NCBI RefSeq assembly: GCF_011682045.1
Contig: NZ_VVIW01000003.1
Coordinates: 186,001-250,000 of the forward strand
Length of the DNA stretch: 64,000 nucleotides
Direction of reading: 5' to 3'
Source: Massilia aquatica
Lineage (GTDB): Bacteria > Pseudomonadota > Gammaproteobacteria > Burkholderiales > Burkholderiaceae_D
Both the position numbers and the translations under genes were made by a program. Of the stretch, positions 26,479 through 59,483 are shown one piece after another. The notes under the pieces are model-generated. The model ran no database searches, was not told the DNA's origin, and saw only the letters and a program-made list of their open reading frames with translations. Every line of letters starts with the position of its first letter. The stretch's first letter is position 1.

Positions 26479-26496
26479 ACAGGGTTCCTTGGTAAG

Positions 26497-27210: not shown

Positions 27211-27256
27211 CGAATCTCCTTCATGCTGCCCACCGCAGGCAAGGGCAGGTGTGCTG

Positions 27257-27958
27257 TCACTTAGCCGGTTTTCGCGGTGGAACGTGACTGGCGATATGTT
27301 GCTCGAACAGATAATCGTCCAGGCCGATGTAGGGCGGCAGTCCCTCCGCCTCGGTCGCGGAGATATCCCCTTTCTTGCCTTCCATATCTTTCCACATCAG
27401 GGTGTTTGGGGTGGAACCATACACATAACGCAAGGCTTTGTATTTCGGGCCGAGCACGAAGTCCGCAGTGTGACCGATAATGCGCCAGTCCCCGATTGAA
27501 CGGGTTTCGAGCAAAGAATAGCTTTCGATCAGCACCGGTGGCACCAGCCAGGTATCGATCTTCGTGTAATCGAAGACCGGCTGCTCGGCGAAATAGTCGA
27601 AAATCTCGGCAAACGCGCCGACCGACGCGTCCGCGACAACCCGGCCGAAGCCGAAGTGGCCGTCTTTCAGCTTGTAGGCAAAGATATCACCCGTGCTGAC
27701 CTTGTGTTTCTTCGGCCGCTTGGCCGTTTTCAGTACGACCTGCTTGATTTCCAGTTCGTCGACCCCGTCCAGGATGTCGCTATCGACGTTGACTTTGAAA
27801 GCGAGGTTGAGGGCGTATTCAAGTTCCTGCAGGGTCGGTTTGCGCGACAAGTCTTCCTGGTACTCACGGCTGAAATCGCGCAGGAAATGCCGCACCGAGT
27901 CGAGTACGGCATCGCCGACCATTATGTCCGGATTTTCCGGTGCACTCCACCATCCCAT
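27257..27958 (-). CDS. Imm26-like immunity protein, paralogue 1 (next to the Rhs toxin)
   Basis: 233 residues starting MGWWSAPENPDIMVGD, after an AAAGGAGCATGTA site. It has core GDIFAYKLKDGHFGFGRVV, FDYFAEQPVFDYTK, GDWRIIGHTADFVLG and VYGSTPNTL. It directly follows the Rhs gene with a 47-bp gap, the position of the cognate immunity gene in Rhs loci. So it is the best candidate to block the GIY-YIG toxin tip. The other four copies probably guard against related toxins (inference). Confidence 0.75.
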   Translation of the reverse strand: MGWWSAPENPDIMVGDAVLDSVRHFLRDFSREYQEDLSRKPTLQELEYALNLAFKVNVDSDILDGVDELEIKQVVLKTAKRPKKHKVSTGDIFAYKLKDGHFGFGRVVADASVGAFAEIFDYFAEQPVFDYTKIDTWLVPPVLIESYSLLETRSIGDWRIIGHTADFVLGPKYKALRYVYGSTPNTLMWKDMEGKKGDISATEAEGLPPYIGLDDYLFEQHIASHVPPRKPAK

Positions 27959-28005: not shown

Positions 28006-31000
28006 CTAGCAGCCCGCGCTGCCTGTACCGGCGTCCGCACTGCCTCCGCTTCCGCCTTTTTTGCCATTGAGCCGGTCTGTCTCGGCTTGAAATTCACGTT
28101 CAAAATACGCTTGCCTGGTTTCCGCCCGCGTGGTGTTCTTATGGTCGAATGAGGCGACCTTGTTGCCGCGCGCATCCCAATCAGCCGCATCTTTCAAGTC
28201 CATGCCGATGGTCCCGTTTTTGGTGTGGTGATGCTCGATATTGGCCTGTTCGATGCCGCGCGCCTTGCCATAAGTGACGTCGCTGGCAATTTCGCGCATG
28301 CTTGCCCCCGAGCCTTCGGGCATCCGCCCCGAGTTGCGATGCTCCGCGGCGCGCCGCTTGAGGTCATCGGTAATGCCGACGTAGTACGGTTTGGTCCCAC
28401 CCGGCGCCCACAGTTCGTAGACAAAGTAACCCGGCGTCGATTCATGGACCCACCCCAGCGGATCCATCCACCCGCTCGGATTGGGCGCATACGCGTACAG
28501 GTTGGCGCCGCCATCGAGCCCGATCGGGTCCTGGCTGATGTAGCGCCCCACATCCGGATCATAATACCGGAACGTGTTGTAGTGCAGTCCCGTTGCCTGG
28601 TCTTCGTACTGCCCCGGAAAGCGCAGCGGCTGGTCGATGCGCGCGACCAGGGCCGCGTCTTCGCCCGCCTCGACCTTGCCCCAGGCCTTGTACTTGCCGG
28701 CCCACGCAATCTGGCCGGCCTCGTCGGTCACTTCCAGCGGCGCGCCCACCAGGTCGGTGTGGAAGTGGAACACGCGCGTGCCCTGGCGCGCGTTGTCGAT
28801 CGCCACTGCCGCCATCGCCGCGCCGATCACCGCATCGATGCGCGCCAGCGGCGTGTAGGCCGCGTCCGGGTTGTAGACGTAGCTGCTCACGCCACCCTCG
28901 CGCACTTCCTGCACCATGCGCAAGCCCTGCCAGACGAAGCGCTTGCGCTCGACGTGCGTCATGCCGCCGCTATCGGTGCGCGCTTCGGTGCTGGCAATGC
29001 GCCGTCCCAGCGCGTCGTACTCGAAGCGCATTTCCACCAGGCCGCGCACCGTTTCGGTGCGGATGCCGATCAGGCGGTCTTCGGCGTCGAAGCTGAAATG
29101 CTGCACCTGGTGCGCGCCCTTGCGCTTGAGCGCCACATTGCCCCAGGCGTCGTAGTCGAAGCGGATATCCTGCCACACGCGCAGGCGGTTGCCTTCGACC
29201 TGGCCGCGGCTCTTGCCGGCGGCGCCGGCGTCGAGCAGGTTGCCGGCCGCATCCCACGCAAACTGTTCCTCGCGCTGTTCGTCGGTGCGCGTCTCGCGCT
29301 GCAGATGGCCGGCCGGATCGTACTGGAAGTCGATGCTGCCGCGCAGCTTGTCGCGCTGCCCGGCCAGTTCGCCCGCAGGACTGTAGCGGTAGTCGCGCCA
29401 CAGGTCGCCCTGCTGCCGGCCCACGCCGCCCGCGTGCGGGCCGCTGGCCTGCCAGGCGCGCCGTCCCAGCGCGTCGTAGCCCATGCGCTGCACCAGGCGG
29501 CCCTGGGTGCGCTGCACTTCGCGGTGCAGGTCGTCGCGCTCGAAGTCGCTGATGATGTGCTGGGCGCTGCGGATCTGGTGCACGTGGCCGGAGCCATAGG
29601 TGAGGGTGTCGATGCGCTGCCCGTGCGGCAGGTTCAGCGTGGTCAGGTTATCGAGTTCGTCGAACGCGTAGCCGACCGTGCCCTCGGCGCCGTGTTCGGC
29701 CACCAGCCGGCCCGCCGCGTCGTAATCGAAGTGGACGCTGCTGGCGACGACGCCGAGGGCGGCCCCGGCCTCGGTCGGCACGCGCGCGCCGCCCAGCAGG
29801 CGGTCTTGCTGATCCCAGGCATAGCGGCTGGTCGCGCTGGCGGTCAGGCGTGCCAGCAGGCGGCCCATCTTGTCGCGCTCGAAGCGCGTGCTGCGGCGTG
29901 GCCGTTCGGCCTGCCCGGCAAGCGGCGCGCCGATTTTTTCGATCTCCACCAGGTTGCCGGCCGCGTCGTAGCGCAGCAGGCGCTCCATGCCGTCGGGCCG
30001 GATTTCGCGCGTCAGGCGGTTGGCGCTGTCGTACTCGAAACGGTAGCGCGCCGCAGCGCCGGCTTCCATCTCCACCACCCGGCCCTGGACGTCGTAGCGG
30101 TAGTGCAGATGGCGCTGCGCCGCATCGATTGCTTCGAGCACCTGGCCGCGCGCATTGCGCACCCAGCGGTTGATCCGTTCGGCGCCGTAGCGGCGTTCGG
30201 TCAGGTGGCCGGCGGCGTTGTAGACAAAGCTCTCAACGCTGCCGTCGGGCAGGGTCACGCGCGCCGGTTCGCCGCTGCGCAGGCGCTCGATGCGGGTGCG
30301 CTGGCCGAGCGGGTCGATGGCTTCGGCCAGCAAGCCATCGGCGTCGTAGTCGTATGCGGTGGTCTTGCCCGAGCAGTCGGTGTAGGACGTGAGCAGGCCG
30401 CGCCGGTTCCATTCGAGCGTGCTGCGCCCGCCGCGCGCATCGACCCGCGCCACCGGGTAGGGCGACAGGCCGGGCGGATATTCCTGGCGCGCTGTGCGTC
30501 CGAGCGGATCGGTGGTCGAGAGCAGGCGGCCAAGGTAATCGTAGTGCGCCGTCCAGCGCTTGCCGTCGGCCGCGGTCAATTGCGTCACGCGCAGGCTGTT
30601 GCCGTCGTAGGCGGTGCGCGTGGTGCGGCCGAGCGGATCGGTTTCGGCCACGATGCGCCCCAGCGGGTCGTATTCGAAGGCGATGGTGCGCTCGCCGGGC
30701 AGTTCGATTCGCACCGGTTGCCCGGCCGCGTTGTACTGCATGCGGTAGCTGCCACCATCGAGATCGGTGCAGGCCAGGATGCGGAAGTTCTCGTCGTAGA
30801 CCCAGTGCGCGGTGCGTCCCTGTTCGTCGGTGGCCCAGCTCTGGCGCTGCGCCGTGTCGTAGCGGAACGCGGTGTGTTCGCCTTCGCTGGAGCTGCATGC
30901 CACCACCCGCGCCTGGCCGTCGACCTCGGCCCAGGTATAGCGCGACACCAGGCCGAGCGCCGTGGTGTGGCTGGTCATCAGGCCGGCGGCCCAGGTGAAC

Positions 31001-32313
31001 TGGCGCGACAGGTCGCCGTTGGCGTCGGTCACCGAGAGCAGCTGGCCGGCCGCGTCATAGCCATAGCGCACCAGCGGGCCCGGGGTGCCGCCGTGGGTGC
31101 ATTCGACCATGGCCAGGCGCGCCGGCAGCGCGCTGTAGTGCAGGCTCAGTTCCTGGCCGCCGCTGGAACGGATCGCGGTGACGCGCTGCGCGTCGTCGCG
31201 CTGGTAGCTGATCCACTGGGCGCTGCGGTCCTCGACCCGGCGCACCCAGGCGACATCGTCGGTGGCCGGGTCGAGGTGGCCGAAGTCGAACCAGGTGTCG
31301 TTGAGGGTGTACAGGATGAACTGCCCGTCCGCAGTGCGGGCCAGGTAGCATTGTTCTTCTTCGCTAAATGCCGTGGTCCCCGCTTGAAGGAGGGGGAAGC
31401 CGGTTTCGCGGCCCTGGCCATCGCGGTACCAGATCTTGCCGTCGCGCTGCTGCAGGCACAGGTCCCATGGCAGCACCCAGCCGCGCCCGAGCGTGCCTTC
31501 GGCGGTGAGGTTGCTGGCGTAAAAGCGCGAACCCACCAGCGGCAGCGGGCTTTGCACCACAAAGTCGATTTCATCCTGCGCCAGCAGCAGCTTGCGGCCG
31601 GTGGCCACTTCCACCGGTTTGCCGAACAAGCCGCCCATGACGCGCCCGACCACCGGCGAGATGACATAGCGTCCGACCGCTTCGCCGACGATAAAGCCGC
31701 CGATGAATTTGGCGGCGCACGGCAGCACCGCCTTGGACAATCCGCCGGCGGCCTTGACCAGTCCCGCCAGGCCGCCCACCAGCCCGGCCAGGGCGAAGGC
31801 CCAGTCGACCGTGGTGCGCAGCCAGGCCGGCACTTCGTCCGCCACTTCCTTGTAGCGCACCGTGCCGCCGCCGATGAAGACATTGTGCGAGCCGCCGTCG
31901 ATCTTGGCGCCGCAGACAATGGCGTCGGTCTTGCGCGCCGCCGGCAGGCCGTTGATGAAGACGTTGCCCGAGCCGTCGGCGATCACCGGCGACGGCGAGT
32001 GATTGCTGCACGCGACCGTGCTGACGGTGGCATAGGCGGCGGCCAGGTTGTTGGTGAACACGTTCATCGAGCCGGTGATGATGGTGCCGGCCGGCGAGGA
32101 GAACATCTTGCCGATGCCCTCCCCGAGCGCGAGGATGCCGCTCGCGCCGAGGCCGGCGGCCATGCCGGCCAGCAGGGCCACGCCGAAGCCGCAGGTGAAG
32201 GTGGCAAAGGCGACGGCGGCGATGAGGGCAATCCCGATCACGGCGCCGACCAGGAACCCGGTCAGTGCGCTGGTGTGGGCGATCGGGTCGGTGATGCGGG
32301 CAGCTTCAAGCAT
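28006..32313 (-). CDS. PAAR-Rhs polymorphic toxin with GIY-YIG nuclease C-terminus (T6SS effector)
   Basis: 1435 residues from the ATG at 32313 ([10 protein letters not shown]) with GGAAGG ahead; a longer upstream frame overlaps the chaperone gene. Order: two N-terminal hydrophobic helices (about 18-70), a PAAR-like region ([19 protein letters not shown]) near 110, the Rhs shell with many YD repeats ([18 protein letters not shown]), and the core-end motif near 1270 ([11 protein letters not shown]). A variable tip covers about 1288-1435. The tip has GIY-YIG hallmarks: FVYELW, then [16 protein letters not shown] with the conserved arginine, and [10 protein letters not shown] with the expected glutamate. 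It should be cut free and degrade nucleic acid in target cells. Delivery by type VI secretion is inferred from PAAR and the chaperone. Confidence 0.9.
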
Positions 32314-32333
32314 GGCGGACCTTCCGTTGGGTG

Positions 32334-32825
32334 TTACGGGGCGCTGGCGGGGGCGTCGGCGGGCGGCGCAAAACTGTCGAGCCAGGCGCGCCACAGCGTC
32401 TCGAACTCCTGGTCGAACGCGCGCGCGCTGGCGGCCGTGAGGATCAGCGCGCGGCGCGGGCCGATGACGAAGGCGGCCTGGCGCTGGCGGATGGTCTGGG
32501 CGCCGTTCTTGTACTGCGCCTCGATCCGTTCGCCCTGCATGGCCGGGTCGTGCAGGCCTAGCCGTTCGGGCGCGCGCGCCAGCAGCTTGTGGCTGGCCAA
32601 GCGCGATTTGAGCAGCGCGATCTGGCGCTCGACATAGGCGGCCAGGTCTTCGCCCTCGGCCAGCCAGTCGCGCGCGATGCTCAGGTTGGGCTGGGTCTGG
32701 AGGTTGGCCGGGATGAAGATGTTACTGGTGCGGTCCTCGTAGCCGGCGGGCAGGCCGATGCTGCCTTCGTGGATGCCGATCCGGGCGTTGCTGCCGCTGC
32801 TGCTCGCTGCTGTGGTGTCGCTCAT
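32334..32825 (-). CDS. DcrB/DUF1795 (EagR-type) chaperone for the Rhs effector
   Basis: 163 residues. It resembles the DUF1795/EagR family, with the N-terminal [18 protein letters not shown] strand region, the [22 protein letters not shown] helix (split by its turn) and a final [13 protein letters not shown] helix. EagR proteins bind and shield the N-terminal membrane helices of PAAR-Rhs effectors before loading on the T6SS spike. It lies 20 bp upstream of the Rhs start, on the same strand, exactly where such chaperones are encoded. The gene ends in a proline/alanine tail. Confidence 0.85.
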
Positions 32826-33969: not shown

Positions 33970-35808
33970 ATGGCTGCTGACGACAGCGCGATGCAGCTGT
34001 ACCTGGAACGCTGCAAGGCCACGGCGGCCGGGTATATCGAGCGCGCAACCCGCTTTAACGTGACCGACCTGGTGCTGCTCGGCGCGCGCCCCGTCATGCG
34101 CCAGTTTTCGGTCACGGTCCGGCACGACCTGGAAGTCATTTCCGAGGCGATTGACTATCACGGCGTGCACCATCCCGATAAAGGCGATTTTGGCACGGCC
34201 GACTGGAAGTGGTACCAGGAGGAAGTGGGAGCGCAGGCGCGTTCGGAATTTGTGCGTCCCGAGACGATGGATAGCCTGGTGCAGTCGGTCAGGACCCAGG
34301 CGTACGCCGCCATTTCCGCCAGAACCTGCATTCGCACTCATCCCCGGCGCCTGTTCCATACCTATACCTGCAATGGATGCAATGGCCGGGGCAGGGTACA
34401 GTGCGGGAACTGTTCCGGCGCGGGCGAGGTCCGGTGCGGGAGCTGCTCGGGTTCGGGACGCACCAGCTGTTCGAGCTGTGGCGGTTCCGGCTCGATCACC
34501 CAACATGCGACCGTGACAGACTACAACGGTCACACCCGCCACGAAACGCAGCGCCGCTCGTGCGGTTCCTGTTCGGGCGGCAGCGTCACGTGTTTCACCT
34601 GCGGCGGCTCCGGGAAAAACCGCTGCGGCAACTGCGCTGGTACGGGCGAGCTTACCTGCACAGGCTGTTCCGGGCATGGCTACCTGACCAAAGTCACCTC
34701 GACGGCGACCTATACCATTCCGGGTTTCGCGGGCCGCTATCCCGAAGGCACGCCCGATTACGTGCATGCGGCCCTGTGCAAGGTGGGATTTGCCAGCCTG
34801 GCCAGTCATGGCGATATCGCACTCCAGAAGGTGGATGTGTTGCGCGACAAGTCGGCGGCGGAGTTCGTGTATCAATGCGCGATACCATTTTGCGAGCTGT
34901 CGATCGACGTGCGCGGCGTCACATCGCAGTGGGTGATGTTCGGCGCCGATCCGCAGATATTCGACGCCGGCGGGGTGCTGGAAGCACTGCTGGAGAGCGA
35001 CTTCAAGGCCCTGGCGGACGTGAGCAGCGGCGGCGCGCGCTGGTCGCCCTGGTTTTATCGGTCGGCGCGCAAGGCGGTCGCGCCGTTCATGGAGTCGGAG
35101 GTGAACCAGATGGTGCTCGACGCGACCTCGGAAGGGCTGGCGCCGAATGCGATCGTGGAAAGGGTCAGCCGCTCGGTCTCGGAAACGTATGTTGAACAGA
35201 CCTTGAAAAACCTCAGGACCACGGTGTCGGTGGCGGCGAACTGGTCGCGTTTGCGGTCGCTGATTGTGTTGATCGTCTTGGCGATCCCGTTTTCGTTTGC
35301 CGCGAACGGGTATCTTCAGCGCAACAAGGCGATCGACCTCTTGTCGGCCGATAAGCAACGCTTCATTTACCAGCCGGACAATGCCGCTATTCAGTGGGAA
35401 ATGGGGCTGATGACGATTCCTTTCATCCTGCTGGGATGGTTCGTCGCGAAATGGCTCAGCGTGCGCTGGTTGAAAAAGGCCGGCGGCCAGAGAACGCTAC
35501 TGTGGGCGCAGCGCCAGGGACTGTTGATGGGGAAGTGGAGCGCGTTGCTGATCGTGGTGACCGCAGTCGGCACCACCGGGGCGTTCTTCAAGCGCTGGCC
35601 GATGTGGGTTGACGATAACGGCAAGGGTTATGGATTGATTCCTGTGTATGAACCGAGAATCCCTTACGAAGCGCAGGAAGCGGCGAAGGACATGGAAAAA
35701 ATGCGGCGCGAGGGGAGGAAGTTCGAATCGGTGGTGGAGATCGAAAAGAAGCGGCGCGCGCGTCTCAAGCTGGAGCAGGACAACAACGCAGCCGCCGGGA
35801 AACCGTAA
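33970..35808 (+). CDS. Membrane protein with doubled DnaJ-type cysteine-rich zinc domain
   Basis: 612 residues, ATG preceded by GAAGGAGCG. Residues about 134-236 contain eight CxxCxGxG-like units (CNGCNGRG, CGNCSGAG, CGSCSGSG, CSSCGGSG, CGSCSGG, CFTCGGSG, CGNCAGTG, CTGCSGHG). That is twice the four of DnaJ, and there is no J domain. The eight CxxC pairs could hold four zinc ions. After a soluble region come three hydrophobic segments (about 428-445, 477-495, 523-540) and a basic coiled tail (MEKMRREGRKFESVVEIEKK). Function is unknown; a membrane-anchored unfolding or redox role is only a guess. Confidence 0.8.
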   Translation: MAADDSAMQLYLERCKATAAGYIERATRFNVTDLVLLGARPVMRQFSVTVRHDLEVISEAIDYHGVHHPDKGDFGTADWKWYQEEVGAQARSEFVRPETMDSLVQSVRTQAYAAISARTCIRTHPRRLFHTYTCNGCNGRGRVQCGNCSGAGEVRCGSCSGSGRTSCSSCGGSGSITQHATVTDYNGHTRHETQRRSCGSCSGGSVTCFTCGGSGKNRCGNCAGTGELTCTGCSGHGYLTKVTSTATYTIPGFAGRYPEGTPDYVHAALCKVGFASLASHGDIALQKVDVLRDKSAAEFVYQCAIPFCELSIDVRGVTSQWVMFGADPQIFDAGGVLEALLESDFKALADVSSGGARWSPWFYRSARKAVAPFMESEVNQMVLDATSEGLAPNAIVERVSRSVSETYVEQTLKNLRTTVSVAANWSRLRSLIVLIVLAIPFSFAANGYLQRNKAIDLLSADKQRFIYQPDNAAIQWEMGLMTIPFILLGWFVAKWLSVRWLKKAGGQRTLLWAQRQGLLMGKWSALLIVVTAVGTTGAFFKRWPMWVDDNGKGYGLIPVYEPRIPYEAQEAAKDMEKMRREGRKFESVVEIEKKRRARLKLEQDNNAAAGKP

Positions 35809-45745: not shown

Positions 45746-47218
45746 GTGACGGATCAATCAAAGGGCGCGAATTGGGCGCTGGAATCGGGCACATGGTCCA
45801 TGGAGCGCGGCGGAGCCGAATTGCGGCTGACTGAAACCAGGATGGGATTCCCGGTTTCTCCATTATTCACATCCGCAGATCTGGTCCAGGCGATGCACAT
45901 GCGTACCGCGCCGGATGGTTCCGGCCCGGCTTACCCGCCCGAGTTCGAGTTTTCGCCGCTGGACGGCGCGCCCCTGCAGGCAGCCCGTAGCAGCGAGGCG
46001 GTCTGGATTGCACCGAGCGGCGCGCGTTCGGTGAACGACCCGTCGGCGCAGCTGGCCGTGGGGTTGCAGCAAAGCGCGCAATCGATCGACAGCGCCTTGC
46101 TGAGAGGCGGCGAGCCCGATGGCGAGCCGCCGCTGGAAATGCCCTTGCCGCCGCCCGGCGCGTATGAATTCTTTTCCGCGCCCTTCGGCACCCGCGCCAG
46201 TGCGCTCATTGCCATCGATACCAGCAAGGGCGCGGTATTTGCATGGCTGCCGGCCGCGCAGGCCTGGCAGCCGTTGGCGGGCGAGGATGCCCTGCTGTCC
46301 GAATGTCATTTGTCCCATCGTGCATGGCGCGCCGAATTGATGGTGCAATTTAACAGCTGTCTGTTCCTGGCGACGGACAATGGCCTGGTGCTGCTGCAGC
46401 CGGATTTTGCGGCACTACAGTATCGTGTTGCCTATTTCGGTGACGGTGCGGCGCAGGCTGCGCCGATCGCCTTCGAAAAAAGGGTGTGGGTGCCCGTGAC
46501 CGACCGCAGCGGCATGCTCAAGATGGTCAACGTCGATACCGAAGGTGAAGAGGGCCCGCCTTTGTTACTCGGCAACGTTCACGATATTGGCGAAGTGAGC
46601 CGGCCCGTCGCCTATGGGCGGACGGCGGTCTGGCCTTGTGGAAAAGGCCAGATTTGTCTGCAGACGGGGCCTGACGGGTCGGTTTCCGCCAGCTTCATTC
46701 CTTGGCAGCAAGACATCATGCCCCACTTCGAATTCGGCTCGCCTTACCTCTCGCGTGCCGGCGTGCTGTGGCAACTGTGCTTTTCCGGCACCGAAGACAC
46801 CTATGTGTACGTGCGCCTCGGAACCACCCGCTGGGAGCGCGTGCCCGCGCTCACGCCGCGCCTGTGCTCGGGTACGGTCAACTACCGCTTCAGCACCATG
46901 TATCCGGGCGTCGATCCGTGGCTGGAACCTGAACACGGCGACGACGGCGCCGCCAACGCGGTGGTGTTCCCCTTGCTGGAACTGAACGGTGGCGTGCTGG
47001 CGCTGAAGATGGCCAGTACATCGAGCCTGACCGCGCTGCTCAATTCGCACGACAAGATGCGCGCCGAACTGATTTTCGAAGACCGCAGCAGCGCGTTCGT
47101 GATTCAAACGATCCCCGTGCCGCAGCCATGGGACATGCGCGTATTCGTCCACCAGGGCGCCCTGTGGGCCTATCATCCGGGCATGCAGCGGATCATCGGC
47201 TGGGGCGTGGCGGTATGA
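45746..47218 (+). CDS. Tubulin-like operon gene 1: unknown cytosolic protein, possible beta-propeller
   Basis: 490 residues from the GTG at 45746 (preceded by TTGGAGCG); an ATG at 45698 would add 16 arginine-rich residues of doubtful value. There is no signal peptide or membrane span. Repeating strand-rich blocks with aromatic ends (ALIAIDTSKGAVFAWLPA, SCLFLATDNGLVLLQPDF, KRVWVPVTDRSGMLKMVNV, GALWAYHPGMQRIIGWG) suggest a beta-propeller, an inference from pattern only. The stop overlaps the next start (ATGA), so it belongs to the tubulin-like operon. Confidence 0.72.
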   Translation: MTDQSKGANWALESGTWSMERGGAELRLTETRMGFPVSPLFTSADLVQAMHMRTAPDGSGPAYPPEFEFSPLDGAPLQAARSSEAVWIAPSGARSVNDPSAQLAVGLQQSAQSIDSALLRGGEPDGEPPLEMPLPPPGAYEFFSAPFGTRASALIAIDTSKGAVFAWLPAAQAWQPLAGEDALLSECHLSHRAWRAELMVQFNSCLFLATDNGLVLLQPDFAALQYRVAYFGDGAAQAAPIAFEKRVWVPVTDRSGMLKMVNVDTEGEEGPPLLLGNVHDIGEVSRPVAYGRTAVWPCGKGQICLQTGPDGSVSASFIPWQQDIMPHFEFGSPYLSRAGVLWQLCFSGTEDTYVYVRLGTTRWERVPALTPRLCSGTVNYRFSTMYPGVDPWLEPEHGDDGAANAVVFPLLELNGGVLALKMASTSSLTALLNSHDKMRAELIFEDRSSAFVIQTIPVPQPWDMRVFVHQGALWAYHPGMQRIIGWGVAV

Positions 47219-48705
47219 GCGCGCTTGGCCGGCTGTTCCCGAAGTTGACCGTCGCGTTTGTCCTGGGCGCCGCATGGCTTGCCCCCGCGTGCGCCGTCCA
47301 GCAAGCATTCCTGGTCCAGAATTCAGGCTGGATGGAGCCGTTTTATACCGATCCGGATTCGCAGTTCAAGCCCCTCATCGCCGCCGTCGCGGGTGCCGCC
47401 GCCAGCCCCGGCGACAAGCTGACCCTGCTCGCGTTCAGCCAGACCAGCGGCACCAATGTCTCGCCGCTGGCGCTGGGCGAGATCGGTACCGCAGGCGCCG
47501 TCATGCCGTCCCTGGCCGCGCTGGGACTGGCCCGCAAGGGAGGTCCCAACTCGGCCCTGGCCGACACGGATTTCCAGGAAGCCATCGGCAGCGTCATTCG
47601 CACGACCTTCGGGGCCAGGCCGGGCATCATCTGGATTTTCACGAACAATAAGAACAGTCCGGGCAACGACCCCGCCACCGCGGCGCGCAATCTCGATTTC
47701 TACCGCATGCTGCACCTGGAGCCGTCCATCACGCGCACCCTCGTGTTCCCGCTCAAGATGCCCGTTCAAGGCAAGAAATTCGCGGCGCGCGGCTTGATGG
47801 TCTACGCGCTCGCCTACGGCAAGGAAGCCGGCGACGAGCTCAACAAGATCCTGGCCAATGGCAGGCTGTCGGCCATCCTGACGCGCCAGCCGGCCCGCTT
47901 AAAGCCGGTGGACCAGGACGGCGTGCGCATCGTGCCCGAATCGATCCTCAATACGCCGGACATCAAGGCCAGCATCGGCCGCGACCAGCGCACCCTGGTG
48001 CTCGATGTCGAGGCATCGAAGCTGGTGCCGGCGGTGCGCCTGAAGGCTTCGCTGGAAAACCTGTTCTATCCGTATCTGATCGGCCATGCGGGCGTGCAGG
48101 GGACACTGCGGGTCGGCCAGCGCACGGTGCCGCTGGAGGTTACGCCGGCCAACATCGACAACCTCGCTCCGGGCGAACGCAAGTCGATCGAAGTCAATTT
48201 CAAGCTGCCGCTGGAAGAAGTGCCTTCGGCCTGGTCGCGCCAGTCGATGGCCGCCATGGGCAAGCAGGTGACGATCCCCATGACCGTCGAACTGGGCCTG
48301 TCCGACCAGCAGCTGGCGCTGCCGGACAGCTTCAAGGCGGAGATGGCCGAACTGTTTCCGGGCGACCCGATCTCGGACGTCTTCGTGCCACCGGCCAGCG
48401 TGCGCGTCTCGATGACCCGGGTGCCGCTGCTGGTGCGGGTCCAGTATCCGATGCTGCCCGTGCTGGTGGTCATCGGCGCCGTGTTCGCTTTCGTGGCGGC
48501 GCTGCTGGGCCTGTTGCTGTTGTCGTCCCGCAGCACGCGCTACGCCGTCCATGTCGACGGCGTGCGCCGCCAGGTCGTGCTCAAACCCTTCCGCAGCCTG
48601 GTCATCCAGGATGGCGAAGGCAATCCGGTGGGCACGCTACGGCGCGGTGTCGGCGGCCCGCAAGTCTCAAGCGTGCTGCCGGGACATACGCTAACCCTTG
48701 GCTGA
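47215..48705 (+). CDS. Tubulin-like operon gene 2: exported vWA-like membrane-anchored protein
   Basis: 496 residues from the ATG at 47215, coupled to gene 1. A signal peptide (LTVAFVLGAAWLAPACA) leads into a vWA-like Rossmann domain. The first strand is AFLVQNSGWMEPF, where QNSGW replaces the metal-binding DxSxS; the later IIWIFTNNKNSPG replaces the usual TDG. So the metal site looks altered. Beta-rich regions follow, then a transmembrane helix (LPVLVVIGAVFAFVAALLGLL split near residue 20) at about 420-440 and a cytosolic tail ending in VSSVLPGHTLTLG. It probably exposes the vWA part to the periplasm. Confidence 0.75.
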   Translation: MSALGRLFPKLTVAFVLGAAWLAPACAVQQAFLVQNSGWMEPFYTDPDSQFKPLIAAVAGAAASPGDKLTLLAFSQTSGTNVSPLALGEIGTAGAVMPSLAALGLARKGGPNSALADTDFQEAIGSVIRTTFGARPGIIWIFTNNKNSPGNDPATAARNLDFYRMLHLEPSITRTLVFPLKMPVQGKKFAARGLMVYALAYGKEAGDELNKILANGRLSAILTRQPARLKPVDQDGVRIVPESILNTPDIKASIGRDQRTLVLDVEASKLVPAVRLKASLENLFYPYLIGHAGVQGTLRVGQRTVPLEVTPANIDNLAPGERKSIEVNFKLPLEEVPSAWSRQSMAAMGKQVTIPMTVELGLSDQQLALPDSFKAEMAELFPGDPISDVFVPPASVRVSMTRVPLLVRVQYPMLPVLVVIGAVFAFVAALLGLLLLSSRSTRYAVHVDGVRRQVVLKPFRSLVIQDGEGNPVGTLRRGVGGPQVSSVLPGHTLTLG

Positions 48706-48747
48706 CGCCATCTCCTTTTTCGCTTTTCACCTCGCCCAGGAACCATC

Positions 48748-49191
48748 ATGCAAGAAAAAAAAGACAATGCCGGCTTCGCCTTGCCGGCGCCGGTCGAAAC
48801 TAACCCGGCTGCGCCGGCCGCGCCTGCGACCGATACTGCGGCGCCTGCTGCGACCACCACGGTAGAAGGCCAAATGCCGGGCTTGCCCGCCGAAGCGGTC
48901 AACACCGGCTCGCGCGACATGATGATCGGCGGCGCCGTCCTGCTGGTGCTGTTCATCGCCTTCTTTTTCGCGAAAAACGCCTACGCCAACGGACTCGTCG
49001 GCAAACGGGTGCCGCCGGCCAAGGCCAATGCCGCCGGCTGGTGGATGTTCATTTTCATGGCCAGCCTGGCCACCGCCGTGGTGCTGGCAGTCGTCAATTC
49101 GGCCAAGTTCGTCGCGCCCATGTTCCTCGGCCCGCTCGGCGCGGTGGCGATCGTCGCCCTGGTCCTGATGATCCTCTCCGGCCGCAAGTAA
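48748..49191 (+). CDS. Tubulin-like operon gene 3: small membrane protein
   Basis: 147 residues. The first 50 are alanine/proline/threonine rich (PAAPAAPATDTAAPAATT). Then come three hydrophobic helices (MMIGGAVLLVLFIAFFFA, WMFIFMASLATAVVLAVV, APMFLGPLGAVAIVALVLMI). Start after CCCAGGAACC. It lies 42 bp from both neighbours in the operon. No family is recognised; a membrane platform for the GTPase is a reasonable guess. Confidence 0.72.
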   Translation: MQEKKDNAGFALPAPVETNPAAPAAPATDTAAPAATTTVEGQMPGLPAEAVNTGSRDMMIGGAVLLVLFIAFFFAKNAYANGLVGKRVPPAKANAAGWWMFIFMASLATAVVLAVVNSAKFVAPMFLGPLGAVAIVALVLMILSGRK

Positions 49192-49233
49192 TTTCCCCCG
49201 CACCACTGACAGTTCACAAGGAATCCAAGCATC

Positions 49234-52200
49234 ATGGCAGACAATCTCAACCAGACTATCGGCGCCGGCAACGAGCGTAAGGCGGAGCAGAGCATCGACC
49301 TGCGCCCCACGCTTTTCATAGGCATCGGTGGTACCGGGATGGAAGTGCTGATGCGGGTGCGCCGGCGTATCCTGAACACGATGTGGGGCGGTTCCGGCGC
49401 GCGCACGCGCATCGAGAGCCTGACCGAGTTCCCGGTTGCGCAATTCATCCAGTTCGACCTCGATACCGGCGCCATCGTCGACAGCGGCCGGGCCCAGTCG
49501 GAAGACTTGCAGTTCGACCAGGTCAAGTTCACCGACGATGAAAAAATCGTCGAAGGCTTCGACATGGACAAGTACAGCCGCGACGACGACGCCCTGGAAA
49601 AATACCCGCACATCAAGGAATGGCTGTCGCTCACGCCCAAGAAAATCCGTGAACTGGGCATCGATCCTTCCAAGGGCGCGGGCCAGATCCGCGCCGTCTC
49701 GCGCCTGTACCTGTTCGACAAATACATCAAGATCCGCGACAAGATCCGCCTCAAGCTGAAGAACCTGAAGGCCGGCCTGTCGCACGAAAGCCAGCTGAGC
49801 GCACTCGGCTTGCGCATGGAAACGAGCAAATTCCGTATCGTCATCGTCGGTTCGGTGGCCGGCGGCACCGGTTCCGGCGCCTTCCTCGACATGGGCCTGA
49901 TGGCGCGCTGGCTGGCCAAGTCGGAAGTCGGCCACGCCGACGTCGAACTGATGCTGTTCCTGCCCACCGGCTATGCGGGCGCCAACAAGGACCGCACCGA
50001 AGCGAATGGCTACGCCGCGCTGATGGAGCTCGAATCGGCCATGCTGGGCAACAAGGGTTACGTGGGCCGCTGGGATGCCTACGACCAGCCGGAATTGCCG
50101 CGCGAGCCCTACCACGAAGTCTACCTGATCGATTCGGGCAACCTGGCGCAGCAGCACACCAAGGATGTCAAGGACGTCTACCACATGGTGGCCGACGCCC
50201 TGTTCGAAGATTTCGCCTCGGGCGACTTCGCGCGCAAGAAGCGCTCGGTGGCCGTCAACCAGGCGCAGCACAAGAACTTCCTGCACGATGCACTGGTGCC
50301 GAAGAACCGCTTTGCCGACATGCGCCTGTCGTATTCGAAACGCTTTTCCTCGTTCGGCCAGGCCGTGCTCGACACGCGCCAGGAAGCGCGCCGCGACGAA
50401 CGCGCCTACCGCTGGGCCGGCGCCATGCTGATGGCCTTCTTCGGGGTGGGCGGCAGCGATGTGGGCGCCAACCGCGCCACCGACAAGCAGCGCGATGAAT
50501 TCACCTCCGCGCAAATGGCGCTGAACAAGACGCCATTCAGCGATTTTCCGGAGTTTTCCGACAGCGCCATCGAGCTGAAACGATCGAGCGGCCAGTTCGA
50601 CGAGTACGCCATCGTCGACAACCTGCTGCAGGACAAAAATGGCTTGCTGCTGGCCGGGGTGGAACAGCGCGTCAACGTGCGCATGGACACCATCAAGAGC
50701 GGCTTCGACCGCAAGGAATGGCCGGCGCAAGTGCGCGAAGCGGTCAAGCAGCTCGAACGCGATGCCGTGCGCGACCAGGATTCGACCGCCGACACCACCG
50801 AAGACCGGGTTACCAAGCGGCGCCGCGAAGTGCTGGAACAAATCAAGGGCAATATCCGCACCCAGCTGTATGCCTACCTGGACAACAAGGAATTCGGCGG
50901 CCTCGAATACGTGCTCTCGCTGGTCGAACAGATCAAGGACAAGCTCGAATCGCCCGGCACCGGCATCCTCAACGCCCTGAGCACGAATGCCGAGCGCTAC
51001 CGCGAAATCAAGGAAGCCGTGCGCACCCGCGAGTACGAGCGCCTGCTGGCCAACCTCGAGCAGACCCGTGGCGGCCTGTTCGGCGGCGGCGAGAAGCAGG
51101 CCGTGACCGTCATGGATCACTTGCGCACCGAAATTGCCAATGCCCTCAAATTCCATCTGCGCGCCAAGGCCGCCGACGAAGCCGTGGCGCTCATGACCGA
51201 GCTGTCGGCCTGGCTGGGCAAGCGCACCGGGGTCGATGCCCAGGGCCGCGCCCACTGGAACGGCCTGGTCGGCGAATTCCAGGCCGGCCGCGAAGCGGTG
51301 CTGGCCATGCTGGCCCAGCTCCAGCATTCCAACGCCGTGCTGCAGCAGGATTTGCGCAAGGACCACGCCACCCTGATCGCCATCCAGGTCAACCAGCCCG
51401 AGGTGGCCTTGCCGGGTGCGGCCCAGCTGCGCGAATGGGCCGACGACGCCTTCAAGGACCTGGGCGGTTCCAGGGCGCTGTTCCCGATGCTCGGTGAACC
51501 GGCCCAGCGTGCCGACATCCTGCTCAAGGTCAAGCGCATGGCCGAGCGACAACTGGCCCTGGCCAGCGCCACCGATGGCGACACGGCGGCATCGGATCCC
51601 CTGTTCGATGCACTTGAACAGATGAATCCGGCCGAGCGCATGGACAAGTTCCGCAAGCTGCTGGCCTGTTCCATGCCGTGGATCGACGCCAACCTGGCGG
51701 GCGACTTCACGGTCAAGGCCGACCAGTTCAAATGCTTCATCGGGGTGGCCGGCGCCGCCAGGTTCAAGGCCAAGTTCGGCGATGAACTAGGCGCCGGCAT
51801 TCCGACCCACGCCGGGATTACGGCGGCGCAACTGGAAATCGTCGAAACCGGCGTGCCCGGCCGCGCGGTCTGCTACTGCGAGCTGTCCGGGATTCCCATG
51901 ACAGTCCTGCGCGGCATGCCCGGCTGGCGCACCAGCTACCGCAAGGAAGCCGAAAAGAATCCGACCCACACGCACATCGACGCGACCCAGTTCAGCCACC
52001 CGATGGCGCCGTCGACCGAAGAAATTGGCCGCCTGGCCGAAGACTTCAAGTACTACCTGCTCGCTGTCATGCTGGGCATACTGACCCGCTCGACGCAGCG
52101 CATCGTGCCGCGCGGCCAGTACCAGTTCGCCGTGGCGCGGGGCGACGTGCGCCGCATTGGCAACGAACGCGCCGTGCGCCAGAACGGCTTGCCGTCGACC

Positions 52201-52959
52201 TACCGCGCCGCCATCGTCAGCCGCGTGCAAGACCGCCTGGCCGAATGCGACGCCGAGCAGACCGCGGCCCTGGCGGCGCTGGCGCATTTCTACGAGACCG
52301 CCGTGTACACGCCCAAACTGGTCGAGGACGCCACCGGCGCGCAAGAGAGCCGCAAGGGTTTCGCCAGCGCCATATCGAGCGAAGTCATGCATGAGCTGCG
52401 CGACAAAGCGCGCCGCAAGGGCATGGGCGAGCGCGAACTGGACCAGCTCGACGAGCGCCTGCAGAACAGCCTGAAGGACTGGGCTGTGGTGGTGGCCGAT
52501 TCGGATGAAGATGCTTACGACTACGAAGTGCGCGAGCCGGGCGACGATGGTCAGCCGCGCCTGAAATTTGCCATGCGTCCTGAGATGCTCGAAACGGGCG
52601 CCATGGCGGCGCTGCTGGCGCGCGGCGCCGCTGCCGGCGCGGCCGTCACGCCTGGCGCGGCGGGCTTGCCGGGCCTGGCGCCGGCCATGCCGCCGATGCC
52701 GGGCATGCCGCCGCCGCTGGGTGGAATGCCGCCGCCGCTGGTCGAGCATCAGTATCACCTTGGGGTGGGCGGCCAGCAGTACGGCCCGTTCGGCGCGATG
52801 CAGGTGGTGCAGATGGTCCAGTCCGGCCAGATCGCCGTTGCCGGCACCAAGGTCTGGCGCGTGGGCCTGACCGCCTGGGGCGAGCTGGGCCAGTTGCCGG
52901 AACTGGCGCTGCTGCTCCAGGCGCCGGCCGCGCCGATGATGCCTCCACCTCTGGTTTAA
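49234..52959 (+). CDS. Tubulin-like operon gene 4: bacterial tubulin-like GTPase with C-terminal GYF_2 domain
   Basis: 1241 residues. The N-terminal ~450 residues match the bacterial tubulin-like family (Pfam Tubulin_2). A glycine loop lies at 29-35 (IGIGGTG), and the tubulin/FtsZ signature loop A209-GGTGSG at 210-215 lies in VGSVAGGTGSGAFLDMG; this corresponds to GGGTGTG of FtsZ. The middle is a long helical region (about 480-800, with coiled segments such as LQHSNAVLQQDLRKDH). A glycine/proline/methionine linker near 1130-1170 leads to a GYF_2 domain (QQYGPFGAMQVVQMVQ, WRVGLTAWGELGQL) that should bind proline-rich peptides. It may polymerise with GTP; no direct evidence. Central component of the six-gene operon. 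Confidence 0.85.
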   Translation: MADNLNQTIGAGNERKAEQSIDLRPTLFIGIGGTGMEVLMRVRRRILNTMWGGSGARTRIESLTEFPVAQFIQFDLDTGAIVDSGRAQSEDLQFDQVKFTDDEKIVEGFDMDKYSRDDDALEKYPHIKEWLSLTPKKIRELGIDPSKGAGQIRAVSRLYLFDKYIKIRDKIRLKLKNLKAGLSHESQLSALGLRMETSKFRIVIVGSVAGGTGSGAFLDMGLMARWLAKSEVGHADVELMLFLPTGYAGANKDRTEANGYAALMELESAMLGNKGYVGRWDAYDQPELPREPYHEVYLIDSGNLAQQHTKDVKDVYHMVADALFEDFASGDFARKKRSVAVNQAQHKNFLHDALVPKNRFADMRLSYSKRFSSFGQAVLDTRQEARRDERAYRWAGAMLMAFFGVGGSDVGANRATDKQRDEFTSAQMALNKTPFSDFPEFSDSAIELKRSSGQFDEYAIVDNLLQDKNGLLLAGVEQRVNVRMDTIKSGFDRKEWPAQVREAVKQLERDAVRDQDSTADTTEDRVTKRRREVLEQIKGNIRTQLYAYLDNKEFGGLEYVLSLVEQIKDKLESPGTGILNALSTNAERYREIKEAVRTREYERLLANLEQTRGGLFGGGEKQAVTVMDHLRTEIANALKFHLRAKAADEAVALMTELSAWLGKRTGVDAQGRAHWNGLVGEFQAGREAVLAMLAQLQHSNAVLQQDLRKDHATLIAIQVNQPEVALPGAAQLREWADDAFKDLGGSRALFPMLGEPAQRADILLKVKRMAERQLALASATDGDTAASDPLFDALEQMNPAERMDKFRKLLACSMPWIDANLAGDFTVKADQFKCFIGVAGAARFKAKFGDELGAGIPTHAGITAAQLEIVETGVPGRAVCYCELSGIPMTVLRGMPGWRTSYRKEAEKNPTHTHIDATQFSHPMAPSTEEIGRLAEDFKYYLLAVMLGILTRSTQRIVPRGQYQFAVARGDVRRIGNERAVRQNGLPSTYRAAIVSRVQDRLAECDAEQTAALAALAHFYETAVYTPKLVEDATGAQESRKGFASAISSEVMHELRDKARRKGMGERELDQLDERLQNSLKDWAVVVADSDEDAYDYEVREPGDDGQPRLKFAMRPEMLETGAMAALLARGAAAGAAVTPGAAGLPGLAPAMPPMPGMPPPLGGMPPPLVEHQYHLGVGGQQYGPFGAMQVVQMVQSGQIAVAGTKVWRVGLTAWGELGQLPELALLLQAPAAPMMPPPLV

Positions 52960-52969
52960 GGAATTTGTT

Positions 52970-54205
52970 GTGAAATCGTGTACCACATGCGCGTCCCCGC
53001 TCTGTAGCGACGTGAAATACTGCCCGTTCTGCGGGGACGGTACGACGGCCCAGGCCCGCGCAAACAAGCCAGCGGCGCGCGCCGCCGTGGCTGCGCCAGC
53101 CGATGGCGAGGCCGCGCCCGCGCCGCGCGCCAGGCGCGCGCCCGAAGCGGCAGCCGCGCCGGCGCCAGCGGTTCCCGCAGCGCGCCCAGGTCCGGCAGGG
53201 CCCGCCGTTCCCGCAGCGGCGGCGGGCCCTGCCGTCGCGGCGCGCGAGGGCGTGCGCGGCACCCCGCCATCGTTCCCTGTCCCGCCGGCGCCTGTCGCGC
53301 CTAAAAAAGGCGGGTTCGGCAAGTGGGTCGTGCTGGCTGTGATCGCGGCGGGTCTGTTCCTTTACTTCAAGAACAAGCCCGACCAGAACGAAGTCGCCTG
53401 CAATGCCGCTTTCGATGCAGGCAACAAGGCCTTGCTGGCCAAGGACATGGCGGGTGCGCGCAGCCAGGCGCTGCTGGCCAATGGCAGCTGCACCGGGGAC
53501 TTGCGCAACAAGGCGCAGTCGCTGCAAACGGCACTCGAGTCGGCCGAGTCGGCCAGCAGCGGTTGCCTGCGCAGCTTCCGCACCATCGACAGCCACCTCG
53601 ATGACCACAAGCTCGCCAGCGCGCGCGAGGCGCTGAACCGGCTCTCTAGCAGGTGTTCGGCCGAGCCGGATGCCGCGCAGGCGCGCGGCAAACTCACTGC
53701 GGCAGTCGTGGCAACGCAGGCTGCGCAAGCCATCCTGCGTGAAGCGCTCGACGCCAACGACGTCGCTGCGGCAAAGACGGCGTATGCACGCCTGCTTGGC
53801 CTGAACCGCGAGAACCCCGATCTGGCTTCGCTCAAGAAGGAGCTCGCCCAGTCGGTGGCGGCGGCCGCCGAGGCAGCCGTGACGCGTGCTGTCGCAGCGG
53901 CGCCGGAGCCTGCCAGGCCGGTTGCCCCGGCCCCGGTCCGGGTGCAGGAAGCGGCGCGCCCGTCGCCACCGCCACCGAGTCGTAAGCAGGAAGCGGACAG
54001 CGGCGCCGCAGTCAAGGCGGAGATGGCGGGCAGTTTCCTGCGCGAGGCGGAGACAGCGCTGTCGCAGAAAAAATTCGATGCCGCCAAAACCTACGTGGAA
54101 AGCGCACGCCGGATGGATCCGAACAATCCCCGTCTGGACAGCATGCTGCAGCGTATCAACGACCGCGAACACCAGGTATTGCAACAAGAATCGACCCTCA
54201 GATAA
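52970..54205 (+). CDS. Tubulin-like operon gene 5: zinc-ribbon membrane protein with helical repeats
   Basis: 411 residues from a GTG start (TAAGGAATTT ahead), 10 bp after the GTPase gene. The N-terminal zinc ribbon has C4, C7, C18 and C21 (CTTC...CPFC). A proline/alanine-rich linker (about 30-105) could be the ligand of the partner's GYF_2 domain. A transmembrane helix (WVVLAVIAAGLFLYF, about 118-133) is followed by a helical, TPR-like outer part with repeated alanine/leucine patterns (ARSQALLANGSCTGDLRNKAQ, ETALSQKKFDAAKTYVESAR). The ribbon should face the cytoplasm and the repeats the periplasm. Confidence 0.75.
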   Translation: MKSCTTCASPLCSDVKYCPFCGDGTTAQARANKPAARAAVAAPADGEAAPAPRARRAPEAAAAPAPAVPAARPGPAGPAVPAAAAGPAVAAREGVRGTPPSFPVPPAPVAPKKGGFGKWVVLAVIAAGLFLYFKNKPDQNEVACNAAFDAGNKALLAKDMAGARSQALLANGSCTGDLRNKAQSLQTALESAESASSGCLRSFRTIDSHLDDHKLASAREALNRLSSRCSAEPDAAQARGKLTAAVVATQAAQAILREALDANDVAAAKTAYARLLGLNRENPDLASLKKELAQSVAAAAEAAVTRAVAAAPEPARPVAPAPVRVQEAARPSPPPPSRKQEADSGAAVKAEMAGSFLREAETALSQKKFDAAKTYVESARRMDPNNPRLDSMLQRINDREHQVLQQESTLR

Positions 54206-54225
54206 ATTCACAACCCGGAAGAGCC

Positions 54226-54942
54226 ATGCAAAATACATCGACAAAACTGATTGCCCTGGCATTGGTCACAAGCATCGTCGGCGGCTGCGCGATGCCTCCC
54301 CAGCAGGGTGATGTCTATCGTAACGCCTCCGATTCGCCGCGCAACGCCGGCGCCGAAGATCCGTGCAGCGTGGGCCAAGCGGCGCTCGCGGGCGCGGCCA
54401 TTGGCGCCCTGTTGGGCGGCCTGACCAAGGGCGGCAAGGGTGCTGTGAAAGGCGCGCTTGCCGGTGGCGCCGTCGGTGCCGCTGGCTGCCTGGCGATTAA
54501 CGCCAACTCGCGCCAGACGCGCACGGCGGCGCAGGTCGACCAGGCCTACATCCAGGCCAACAACCGCCTGCCGGCCGACCCCCAGGTGCTGGCTTACACG
54601 CCGACGATCGCCAGCACGGCCCAGCGTGGCCAGCCGGTGCGGGTCAACTCGACCGTCGAACTGGTCAACGGCTCGCAGAACAAGGTGACCGAAGTCCGTG
54701 AAGAGTTGCAGGTATTTGACCAGTCCGGCAAGCAATTCCTGGGCGGTCAGAAGCCGCTCACCAACAACAGCGGCGGACGCTTCGAGAATTCCTTCGTCAT
54801 GACCTTGCCGCAGTCGGTATCGCAGGGTACCTACACGATGAAGACCACGTTGTATGTCAACGGCAAGGTATCGGCGACGCGCAACCTGCAGACCCAGCTT
54901 GTGATTGATGAGCGCGGCGTGATGATGGTGGCCAGCCGGTAA
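54226..54942 (+). CDS. Tubulin-like operon gene 6: lipoprotein with glycine zipper
   Basis: 238 residues. A lipoprotein signal ends in SIVGG-C21. A glycine zipper (AALAGAAIGALLGGLTKGG, then GALAGGAVGAAGCLA) suggests insertion into the membrane. The C-terminal half is beta-rich (VRVNSTVELVNGSQNKV, GTYTMKTTLYVNGKVSATR). Last gene of the operon, 20 bp after gene 5. Such lipoproteins often sit in the outer membrane, so the operon may span the envelope. Confidence 0.75.
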   Translation: MQNTSTKLIALALVTSIVGGCAMPPQQGDVYRNASDSPRNAGAEDPCSVGQAALAGAAIGALLGGLTKGGKGAVKGALAGGAVGAAGCLAINANSRQTRTAAQVDQAYIQANNRLPADPQVLAYTPTIASTAQRGQPVRVNSTVELVNGSQNKVTEVREELQVFDQSGKQFLGGQKPLTNNSGGRFENSFVMTLPQSVSQGTYTMKTTLYVNGKVSATRNLQTQLVIDERGVMMVASR

Positions 54943-54967: not shown

Positions 54968-55423
54968 TCAGCGACGGTTCTGCCAGGGCTTTTTTCGCTG
55001 CGCGTCGAAGAAGAAGCCCTTCCACAGGAACATCAATTTCCCATCGGCCTTGGGGAACAGGAAGGTGCACCTGGCATCAATGGGTGTCACTGTCGCGGGC
55101 AAGTGCAGCTTGTCGGTGCTCGCGTGCATCTGCTCGCGAAAATAGTCGGCAGTGCGCTCCTGCGTTCGCGCGTAGGTCGGCGACCTGCATACGCGGCCGT
55201 CGAAGGCGAAACTGTCCTTGCTGATGCTTACCGGTTTTCCGACCAGGCGTTTCGCCTGTTTATCGTCTATCGCGGTTACATCGGCTGAGTCAAGGGCCGT
55301 AACAACTGTCCATTTGCCCAAAATATCGGCATTGTTCGCTTCACCGGCTCGCGCGCTCAATGCAATGACAGCGCCGAGGACACCGACAAACACGTGCGAT
55401 AGTGTGGATTGAAGAATTTGCAT
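54968..55423 (-). CDS. Exported hypothetical protein
   Basis: 151 residues with a signal peptide (SHVFVGVLGAVIALSARA-G). The mature part begins NNADILGKWTVVTALDSA, has CRSPTYARTQERTADYF and ARCTFLFPKADGKLMFLW (a possible disulfide pair), and ends RKKPWQNRR. The GKW start recalls small lipocalin-like domains, but this is weak. It converges with the tubulin-like operon and is the last intact gene before the decayed island. Confidence 0.65.
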   Translation of the reverse strand: MQILQSTLSHVFVGVLGAVIALSARAGEANNADILGKWTVVTALDSADVTAIDDKQAKRLVGKPVSISKDSFAFDGRVCRSPTYARTQERTADYFREQMHASTDKLHLPATVTPIDARCTFLFPKADGKLMFLWKGFFFDAQRKKPWQNRR

Positions 55424-55439
55424 CGTATTGGCGCCCCGG

Positions 55440-55838
55440 CTATTTTTCAGACGACAGGAAGGGCGCGGCTTCGCCAGCCCTGCGGATGATCAAGCCCCTT
55501 AAAAGAACGAACTTCGTCTTGCCGTCGCGTCCCTTGACCCGTGCTTTTGTCATTGATGCGATCAGCCGTCCAGCCGCCTTCAGGTTGCCGCTGCCGACGA
55601 GGTCGAATATGTCCGATGAGCCTGGGATGCCGAGGTTGTATGCCAGGCTCACCAAGGCGTCAAATTGAATCTCGGATAATGCCTGCTTAGTAACCCGGCG
55701 GCGAACACCCCTCTCCGCTTCCGCGACTTTTGATGAGAACGCCACCTCGACTTGAGCTGCACTGACCTTCTGCTTCAGCTCAGCTGCGGTGCATGGGCCA
55801 TCGTGGGCTTTGATACCGATGCCCCAGGTGCAATTTCC
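55440..55838 (-). pseudogene. Remnant of a GH24 phage-type lysozyme
   Basis: One frame reads GNCTWGIGIKAHDGPCT (from about 55838), then ELKQKVSAAQVEVAFSSKV and IQFDALVSLAYNLG, ending PFLSSEK at 55440. The CTWGIG and FDALVSLAYNLG motifs are those of GH24 endolysins. The first in-frame start (GTG, 55745) would skip the motif region. Upstream, the expected catalytic glutamate segment is not recognisable, although the frame stays open. So it is a front-truncated or decayed endolysin, pointing to a former prophage beside the tRNA. Confidence 0.6.
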
Positions 55839-56061: not shown

Positions 56062-56138
56062 TGGTCAGGGTGAGAGGATTCGAACCTCCGGCCTCTGTGT
56101 CCCGAACGCAGCGCTCTACCAGGCTGAGCCATACCCCA
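56062..56138 (-). tRNA. tRNA-Pro(CGG), degenerate copy
   Basis: 77 nt including encoded CCA, with anticodon loop TTCGGGA (CGG) and intact D and T arms. Compared with the copy at 59407-59483 it has four differences, all transitions: pair 1-72 becomes T-G, 2-71 becomes G-T, 7-66 becomes an A-C mismatch, and 30-40 becomes a C-A mismatch in the anticodon stem. It is probably non-functional and marks the left end of an island. Confidence 0.75.
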
Positions 56139-59406: not shown

Positions 59407-59483
59407 TGGTCGGGGTGAGAGGATTCGAACCTCCGGCCTCTGCGTCCCGAACGCAGCGCTCTACCAGGCTGAGCCACACCCCG
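59407..59483 (-). tRNA. tRNA-Pro(CGG), intact copy
   Basis: 77 nt including encoded CCA. The acceptor stem CGGGGTG pairs with CACCCCG. The D arm is GCTC/GAGC, the anticodon stem CTGCG/CGCAG has loop TTCGGGA (anticodon CGG), and the T arm GGAGG-TTCGAAT-CCTC is canonical. All stems pair. It is transcribed away from the island and next to ispB. Confidence 0.95.

Follow-up and report, generated by a model that had tools for sequence, protein, structure and literature searches.

A putative FtsZl1-type GTPase operon in Massilia aquatica, best read as a Burkholderiales variant of the described FtsZl1/vWA system

The 64,000-nucleotide stretch of Massilia aquatica DNA analysed here (NCBI RefSeq assembly GCF_011682045.1, contig NZ_VVIW01000003.1, positions 186,001 to 250,000 of the forward strand; hereafter the window) contains six co-directional open reading frames (ORFs), all on the + strand at 45746..54942, which include a gene (g4) for a large tubulin-like GTPase. 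Judged from sequence, this operon is best read as a Burkholderiales variant of the FtsZl1/vWA system. Proteins with a Tubulin_2 domain constitute the FtsZl1 family of Makarova and Koonin (2010, PMC2875224), a predicted membrane-remodelling machine of many bacteria and archaea, and FtsZl1/vWA membrane-protein operons, including that of Polaromonas naphthalenivorans within the Burkholderiales, are described in the main text of that paper. A first-pass annotation of the window had presented the six genes as an undescribed system. The idea of an undescribed kind of system was rejected, since the family and its vWA/membrane-protein operons were published in 2010 with a remodelling role proposed, and neighbourhoods combining tubulin and vWA genes were treated as conflict systems by Kaur et al. 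(2020, PMC7159879). The remodelling idea was repeated in a 2015 paper, FtsZ-like proteins of this type were equated with PF13809 in a 2023 paper, and a later phylogeny set Tubulin_2 proteins aside as divergent. The words GYF, propeller and zinc do not occur in the main text of PMC2875224; the same operon may be listed in the gene tables of its additional files.

The junctions between the six genes measure -4, 42, 42, 10 and 20 bp, which confirmed the tight six-gene operon of the first-pass annotation, with Tubulin_2 and GYF_2 in the fourth gene; its domain calls for g1, g2, g4, g5 and g6 were broadly correct. The genes and the parts of g4 are as follows.

45746..47218, + strand: g1, beta-propeller protein of 490 aa with no transmembrane (TM) segment seen, fast-evolving
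47215..48705, + strand: g2, export signal, periplasmic vWA-like domain, C-terminal TM region and short cytoplasmic tail
48748..49191, + strand: g3, 147 aa, three TM helices preceded by an N-terminal tail in which the motif GFxLP is conserved
49234..52959, + strand: g4, FtsZl1-type GTPase of 1241 aa
49312..50418, + strand: Tubulin_2 domain of g4 (aa 27-395), with the loop AGGTGSG at aa 209-215
52753..52905, + strand: GYF_2 domain of g4 (aa 1174-1224)
52942..52956, + strand: conserved C-terminal peptide of g4, PPPLV in the window
52970..54205, + strand: g5, cytoplasmic zinc ribbon, Pro/Ala-rich linker, one TM helix (aa 115-133) and periplasmic helical/TPR-like region
54226..54942, + strand: g6, lipoprotein with a glycine zipper, accessory

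The Tubulin_2 domain (PF13809) of g4 was matched with an E value of 3.2e-56 (191.5 bits versus a cut-off of 27) and GYF_2 with an E value of 1.5e-9, and g4 was the sole Tubulin_2 match in the 7.47 Mb genome to which the window belongs. The loop AGGTG[SA]G was present in 34 of the 34 GTPases counted, that of the window included; compared with the FtsZl1 signature GGGTG(S/T)G, its first G is replaced by A, and Ala replaces Ser in the rows of the second of the two clades described below. On domain and loop together, g4 is assigned to the FtsZl1 family. No Pfam family scored above its cut-off for genes 1, 2, 3, 5 and 6, and the similarity of g6 was limited to the beginning of OmpA-like lipoproteins, with an E value of 8e-5 and a score well short of the model cut-off. 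The propeller protein g1 is presumably cytoplasmic. In g3 the motif GF.[LVI]P was found in 33/33 orthologues, and a charge-based topology with the N-terminus outside and the C-terminus inside was predicted for 22/22.

The GTPase was detected in 34 of the 145 genomes of the host family, the window genome being one of them (E ≤ 0.001); in three of them (G009, G087 and G132) the match was short or limited to the GYF end. The first-pass annotation had called for a neighbourhood survey to see whether the GTPase keeps its partners, and it does: in a set of 35 loci with flanks (L032–L066, two genomes represented twice), tblastn (E ≤ 1e-3) found g1, g2, g3 and g4 each at 35/35 loci, g5 at 17/35 and g6 at 16/35. 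At L043 the best tblastn piece of g4 was the GYF end only, and the family search matched query residues 10-1153 in the same gene (genome G018). Protein clusters placed g1 at 33 loci, g2 at 34, g3 at 34, g4 at 35 and kin of g5 at 31/35, or 32 counting L059; ORF calling was rough, and the uncalled genes (g1 in L044 and L056, g2 in L043, g3 in L064, g6 in L055 and L061) were found by tblastn.

Outside the family, the g2 profile matched at least 5 of 349 genomes of the order and at least 3 of 398 of the phylum, lower bounds that include the window genome in both counts and are based on the best 3 or 4 candidates per genome, and Tubulin_2 was found in 8 of the 398 phylum genomes, in 7 of them over the cut-off. 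In one genome of the same phylum and another class (G802) the gene order was conserved for g1 (E 1.6e-25), g2 (8.5e-98), g3 (3.6e-21) and g4 (6.7e-224), and GYF_2 was likewise present in g4. There g4 is followed by an exported protein with 17kDa_Anti_2 over the cut-off and PG_binding_1 just under it, and then by a CxxC-CPxC zinc-ribbon-like TM protein with two PEGA stretches in its outer part; g5 thus keeps its zinc ribbon and TM helix while its periplasmic part varies, being TPR-like or PEGA. Taken over all these loci, g1–g4 form the core and the outward-facing parts vary.

The GTPases fell into two clades with 67–82% and 44–45% identity to the window g4 (support 100/99 and 100/100). Clade 1, which includes the window, was found in Oxalobacteraceae, Variovorax, Rubrivivax and Paraburkholderia with flanks varying between genera; in clade 2 the upstream neighbour c6 was common to 17/20 loci, so that this clade resides mostly at one chromosomal site. 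The last eight residues of g4 contained PP[PMS]L in 15/15 clade 1 and PDP in 19/19 clade 2 proteins, and g6 was confined to clade 1 loci plus L039. The latter, a clade 2 GTPase locus with g6, is unlike the other clade 2 loci by tblastn, and by eye its downstream region holds further genes, one of them for another membrane protein of zinc-ribbon-like appearance. A zinc-ribbon-like CPxCG motif is present in the gene 1 proteins of clade 2 (Zn_Ribbon_1 in 14/28 rows, E ≤ 1) and absent from the window g1. Over all pairs, Mantel correlations with the GTPase were 0.95 for g1, 0.97 for g2, 0.90 for g3 and 0.85 for g5 (each reached in 0/2000 permutations), and 0.72 for g6 (53/2000), values driven in large part by the two-clade split. 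Within clade 2, g6 excluded, r was 0.77–0.91, reached in at most 1/2000 permutations.

The vWA identity of g2 is probable on profile evidence. An in-register match over 106 columns was obtained with a 25-row vWA profile, its score of 21.3 being reached by 0/200 shuffles, and the five other operon genes scored 9.2–14.2. A 5-row vWA profile gave a non-significant match (0.4% over 28 columns elsewhere), the best E value of a hidden Markov model from the same 5-row set on g2 proteins was 0.012, and a search of g2 against the Protein Data Bank (PDB) returned one chance match only. The metal ion-dependent adhesion site (MIDAS) D.SGS was found in 0/33 g2 orthologues, with [VI]Q[ND]SGW in 33/33 (VQNSGWM in the window); the vWA head is probably metal-free. 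According to the main text of PMC2875224, an intact MIDAS DxSxS is present in the majority, and not in all, of the vWA proteins of FtsZl1 operons.

The nearest solved relative of the g4 GYF_2 domain was PDB entry 7z3c, titled Adventurous gliding motility protein X (E 1.2e-6), and the NCBIfam model gliding_GltJ matched g4 in the GYF region only (E 0.29, 10 bits versus a cut-off of 450). Protein X is taken here to be GltJ, which combines a zinc ribbon with GYF. The classical GYF ligand is PPG with a hydrophobic residue after it. This motif, named PPG-phi for GIGYF2 in a published abstract, was found in 0/34 g3, 3/31 g5 and 0/35 g4 orthologues and is absent from g3, g5 and g4 of the window; PPP was present in 22/31 g5 orthologues, in which the linker is Pro-rich and cytoplasmic. 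The Pro-rich stretches of genes 3 and 5 had been put forward as natural ligands of GYF_2, a claim weakened by these counts and by the g3 tail, periplasmic in all 22 predictions. Since that tail is predicted to lie outside, only the g5 linker or the PPPL repeats of g4 itself could reach a cytoplasmic GYF domain: gene 3 is judged an unlikely ligand, the gene 5 linker is a possible one, and GYF_2 may bind to the repeats of its own protein.

A deletion remnant of the other variant was found in the genome of the window. At the clade 2 site (L119, contig C11, 2921-4306) the flanks are kept at ~89% DNA identity to L045, and all that is left of the operon is the g1 start (~44 codons that can be aligned to L045), a short piece of g4 with 141 aligned bases, the g4 end and an open g5 frame. 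The simplest account is that the core of a clade 2 operon formerly present in this lineage was lost and that a clade 1 operon is now found elsewhere in the genome; the window operon looks horizontally acquired. In each of the 34 matching genomes as many as four candidates were scored, and none of these genomes had two full-length GTPase matches; the two variants may share one slot per genome.

The explanation favoured here, with a probability of about 0.5, is an envelope-spanning GTPase complex that builds or reshapes an envelope-linked scaffold. The GTPase g4 would assemble on the inner membrane, at its cytoplasmic face, with the g1 propeller as a soluble adaptor, and would be tethered through g3 and the cytoplasmic segments of g2 and g5; the g2 vWA head, the g5 ectodomain and the g6 lipoprotein would contact wall and outer membrane, the place of g6 in the distant genome G802 being taken, it would seem, by the protein with the borderline peptidoglycan-binding domain. 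Turnover of GTP is proposed to build or reshape the scaffold. A complex reaching from cytoplasm to envelope, as suggested in the first-pass annotation, is the arrangement to be expected from these parts. Since both g2 and g5 are predicted to span the inner membrane and to have parts on either side of it, they would answer, for this variant, the doubt of a reviewer printed with PMC2875224 about cytoplasmic versus outer-membrane partners.

Several points weigh against this scaffold. Filament formation by FtsZl1 was itself doubted in 2010, the T6-H7 elements not being identifiable (PMC2875224), and no experiment on the family, and nothing on this operon, was found among the open-licence papers listed. 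Structure prediction, which covered g1 and g4, gave for aa 1-1159 of g4 an AlphaFold2 model (15 alignment rows) with long helices within aa 519-708 and a mean confidence score (pLDDT) of only 51.7, from which polymerising surfaces are not readable. The FtsZl1 family is described as having an extended coiled coil and a C-terminal domain that is mostly helical, for which these helices are at most a low-confidence indication. The hhalign probability of the g2 vWA assignment was only 3%. Genes for a kinase, a diverged GTPase or OmpA, frequent and not universal in the FtsZl1 operons of PMC2875224, were not recognised among the six genes with Pfam and NCBIfam. Co-divergence with the GTPase within clade 1 was weak, with r of 0.41 for g1 (35/2000), 0.30 for g2 (85), 0.38 for g3 (71), 0.35 for g5 (27/2000) and 0.15 for g6 (441/2000), which would fit saturation or some swapping of components between the operons of this clade.

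The surroundings of the operon include the following features.

28006-32394, - strand: Rhs gene with prePAAR and PAAR motifs, upstream of the operon
54968-55745, - strand: phage-lysozyme-like ORF and adjoining exported-looking 151-aa protein, downstream of the operon
56062..56138, - strand: tRNA-Pro(cgg) copy near the operon, a possible island boundary
59407..59483, - strand: second tRNA-Pro(cgg) gene, 73/77 bases identical to the copy at 56062..56138

Beside the Rhs gene lie three genes similar by eye (25783-27958, - strand), the one checked matching Imm26, and an insertion sequence (IS) transposase is also found upstream. The lysozyme-like ORF and the 151-aa protein are possibly an effector-immunity pair; a homologous pair occurs near the clade 2 operon of L047. 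The two tRNA-Pro(cgg) genes flank a lower-GC stretch adjoining the operon, and a search of the window with the copy at 56062-56138 as an attachment site gave no exact match of 14 or more bases besides the second gene. The region has the look of an accretion zone; an island is only suggested, because inspection by eye of the ORFs at 26-43.5 kb (≥150 aa), 43-58 kb (≥80 aa) and 55.4-64 kb (≥110 aa) revealed no integrase. A membrane protein at 33970-35808 (+ strand) has many CxxCxGxG-like repeats resembling by eye the zinc centre of DnaJ, with no Pfam match at E ≤ 0.05. At L081 the start of an upstream minus-strand gene reads by eye like a TRAP/TAXI-type binding protein; a gene of this type was likewise mentioned for the Polaromonas FtsZl1 locus by the 2010 reviewer (PMC2875224). 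Elsewhere in the same order (L082, genome G401), a further Tubulin_2 gene, in which GYF_2 gave no match, adjoins caspase-family (Peptidase_C14) and CHAT genes and two small proteins Cys-rich by eye; this FtsZl1 locus may be of the conflict type.

A conflict or anti-phage system, in which the GTPase would assemble upon infection and act at the membrane via g2, g3 and g5, is unlikely. In its favour are the patchy presence (34/145 family genomes, with three partial matches only), the spread of clade 1 across several families with differing flanks, the occurrence in the window genome of both a decayed variant and a complete one, the Rhs toxin, Imm26-like and IS genes upstream with the lysozyme ORF and duplicated tRNA-Pro downstream, the Tubulin_2 operon beside caspase and CHAT genes, and the argument published in 2020 on tubulin-bearing GTPase-centred systems (PMC7159879). 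The PADLOC models, however, gave 0 matches to the six proteins at E ≤ 1, no effector domain was recognised among them with Pfam and NCBIfam, and with the c6 neighbour shared by 17/20 of its loci, clade 2 stays for the most part at one chromosomal site.

Instead of forming a scaffold, the six proteins could regulate protein export or envelope homeostasis, with g2, g5 and g6 as a sensor signalling to a non-polymerising GTPase switch. This reading agrees with the transport or signalling role proposed for FtsZl1 by the 2010 reviewer (PMC2875224) and with the varied g5 ectodomains, which suit a receptor; it is rather improbable, and no transporter or output domain was recognised among the six proteins in the same searches. 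Quite as doubtful is a distinct, self-contained tubulin-superfamily machine of Gram-negative bacteria, in which the GYF reader and the Pro-rich peptides of the GTPase (linker and C-terminal PPPL) would cross-link subunits or filaments by their own tails and the assembly would pull on or sense the wall via a metal-independent vWA head and exchangeable g5 ectodomains; a mostly vertical and a horizontally mobile variant of it would compete for the one slot per genome. An adhesion or motility complex like the focal adhesions of Myxococcus, in which GYF and zinc-ribbon switches would couple an assembly in the cytoplasm to vWA and envelope components, is very unlikely. The kinship of GYF_2 to 7z3c, the zinc ribbon and single TM helix of g5, and the vWA adhesin CglB named at Myxococcus adhesions in a reference title favour it; but sequence kinship is limited to GYF, no AglRQS/MotAB-like motor gene is among the six, and g2 is membrane-anchored with its MIDAS lost.

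The operon offers a compact version of the FtsZl1 system in cultured hosts, with a defined core of g1–g4, exchangeable outer parts and two natural variants, and the question of an FtsZl1 machine becomes testable directly in Massilia, Duganella or Rubrivivax.

Among known systems, gliding protein X of Myxococcus xanthus (PDB 7z3c) is related through its GYF sequence and through the theme of zinc-ribbon and envelope partners; in the focal adhesions of this organism, in contrast, the cytoskeletal element is MreB and the GTPase is the Ras-like MglA, and no motor gene is among the six described here. The GAP1-N2 GTPase-centred systems, as presented in PMC7159879, are similar in having one or more tubulin-domain genes beside vWA genes, one of which encodes TM helices and an extracellular vWA domain. 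The FtsZl1/vWA operons, as described in PMC2875224, share with the present one an N-terminal Tubulin_2 GTPase domain, a long C-terminal part, several membrane proteins and, probably, an adjacent vWA-type gene; the window operon differs from them in that its vWA-like protein has lost the MIDAS and its GTPase ends in GYF_2 and a conserved peptide.

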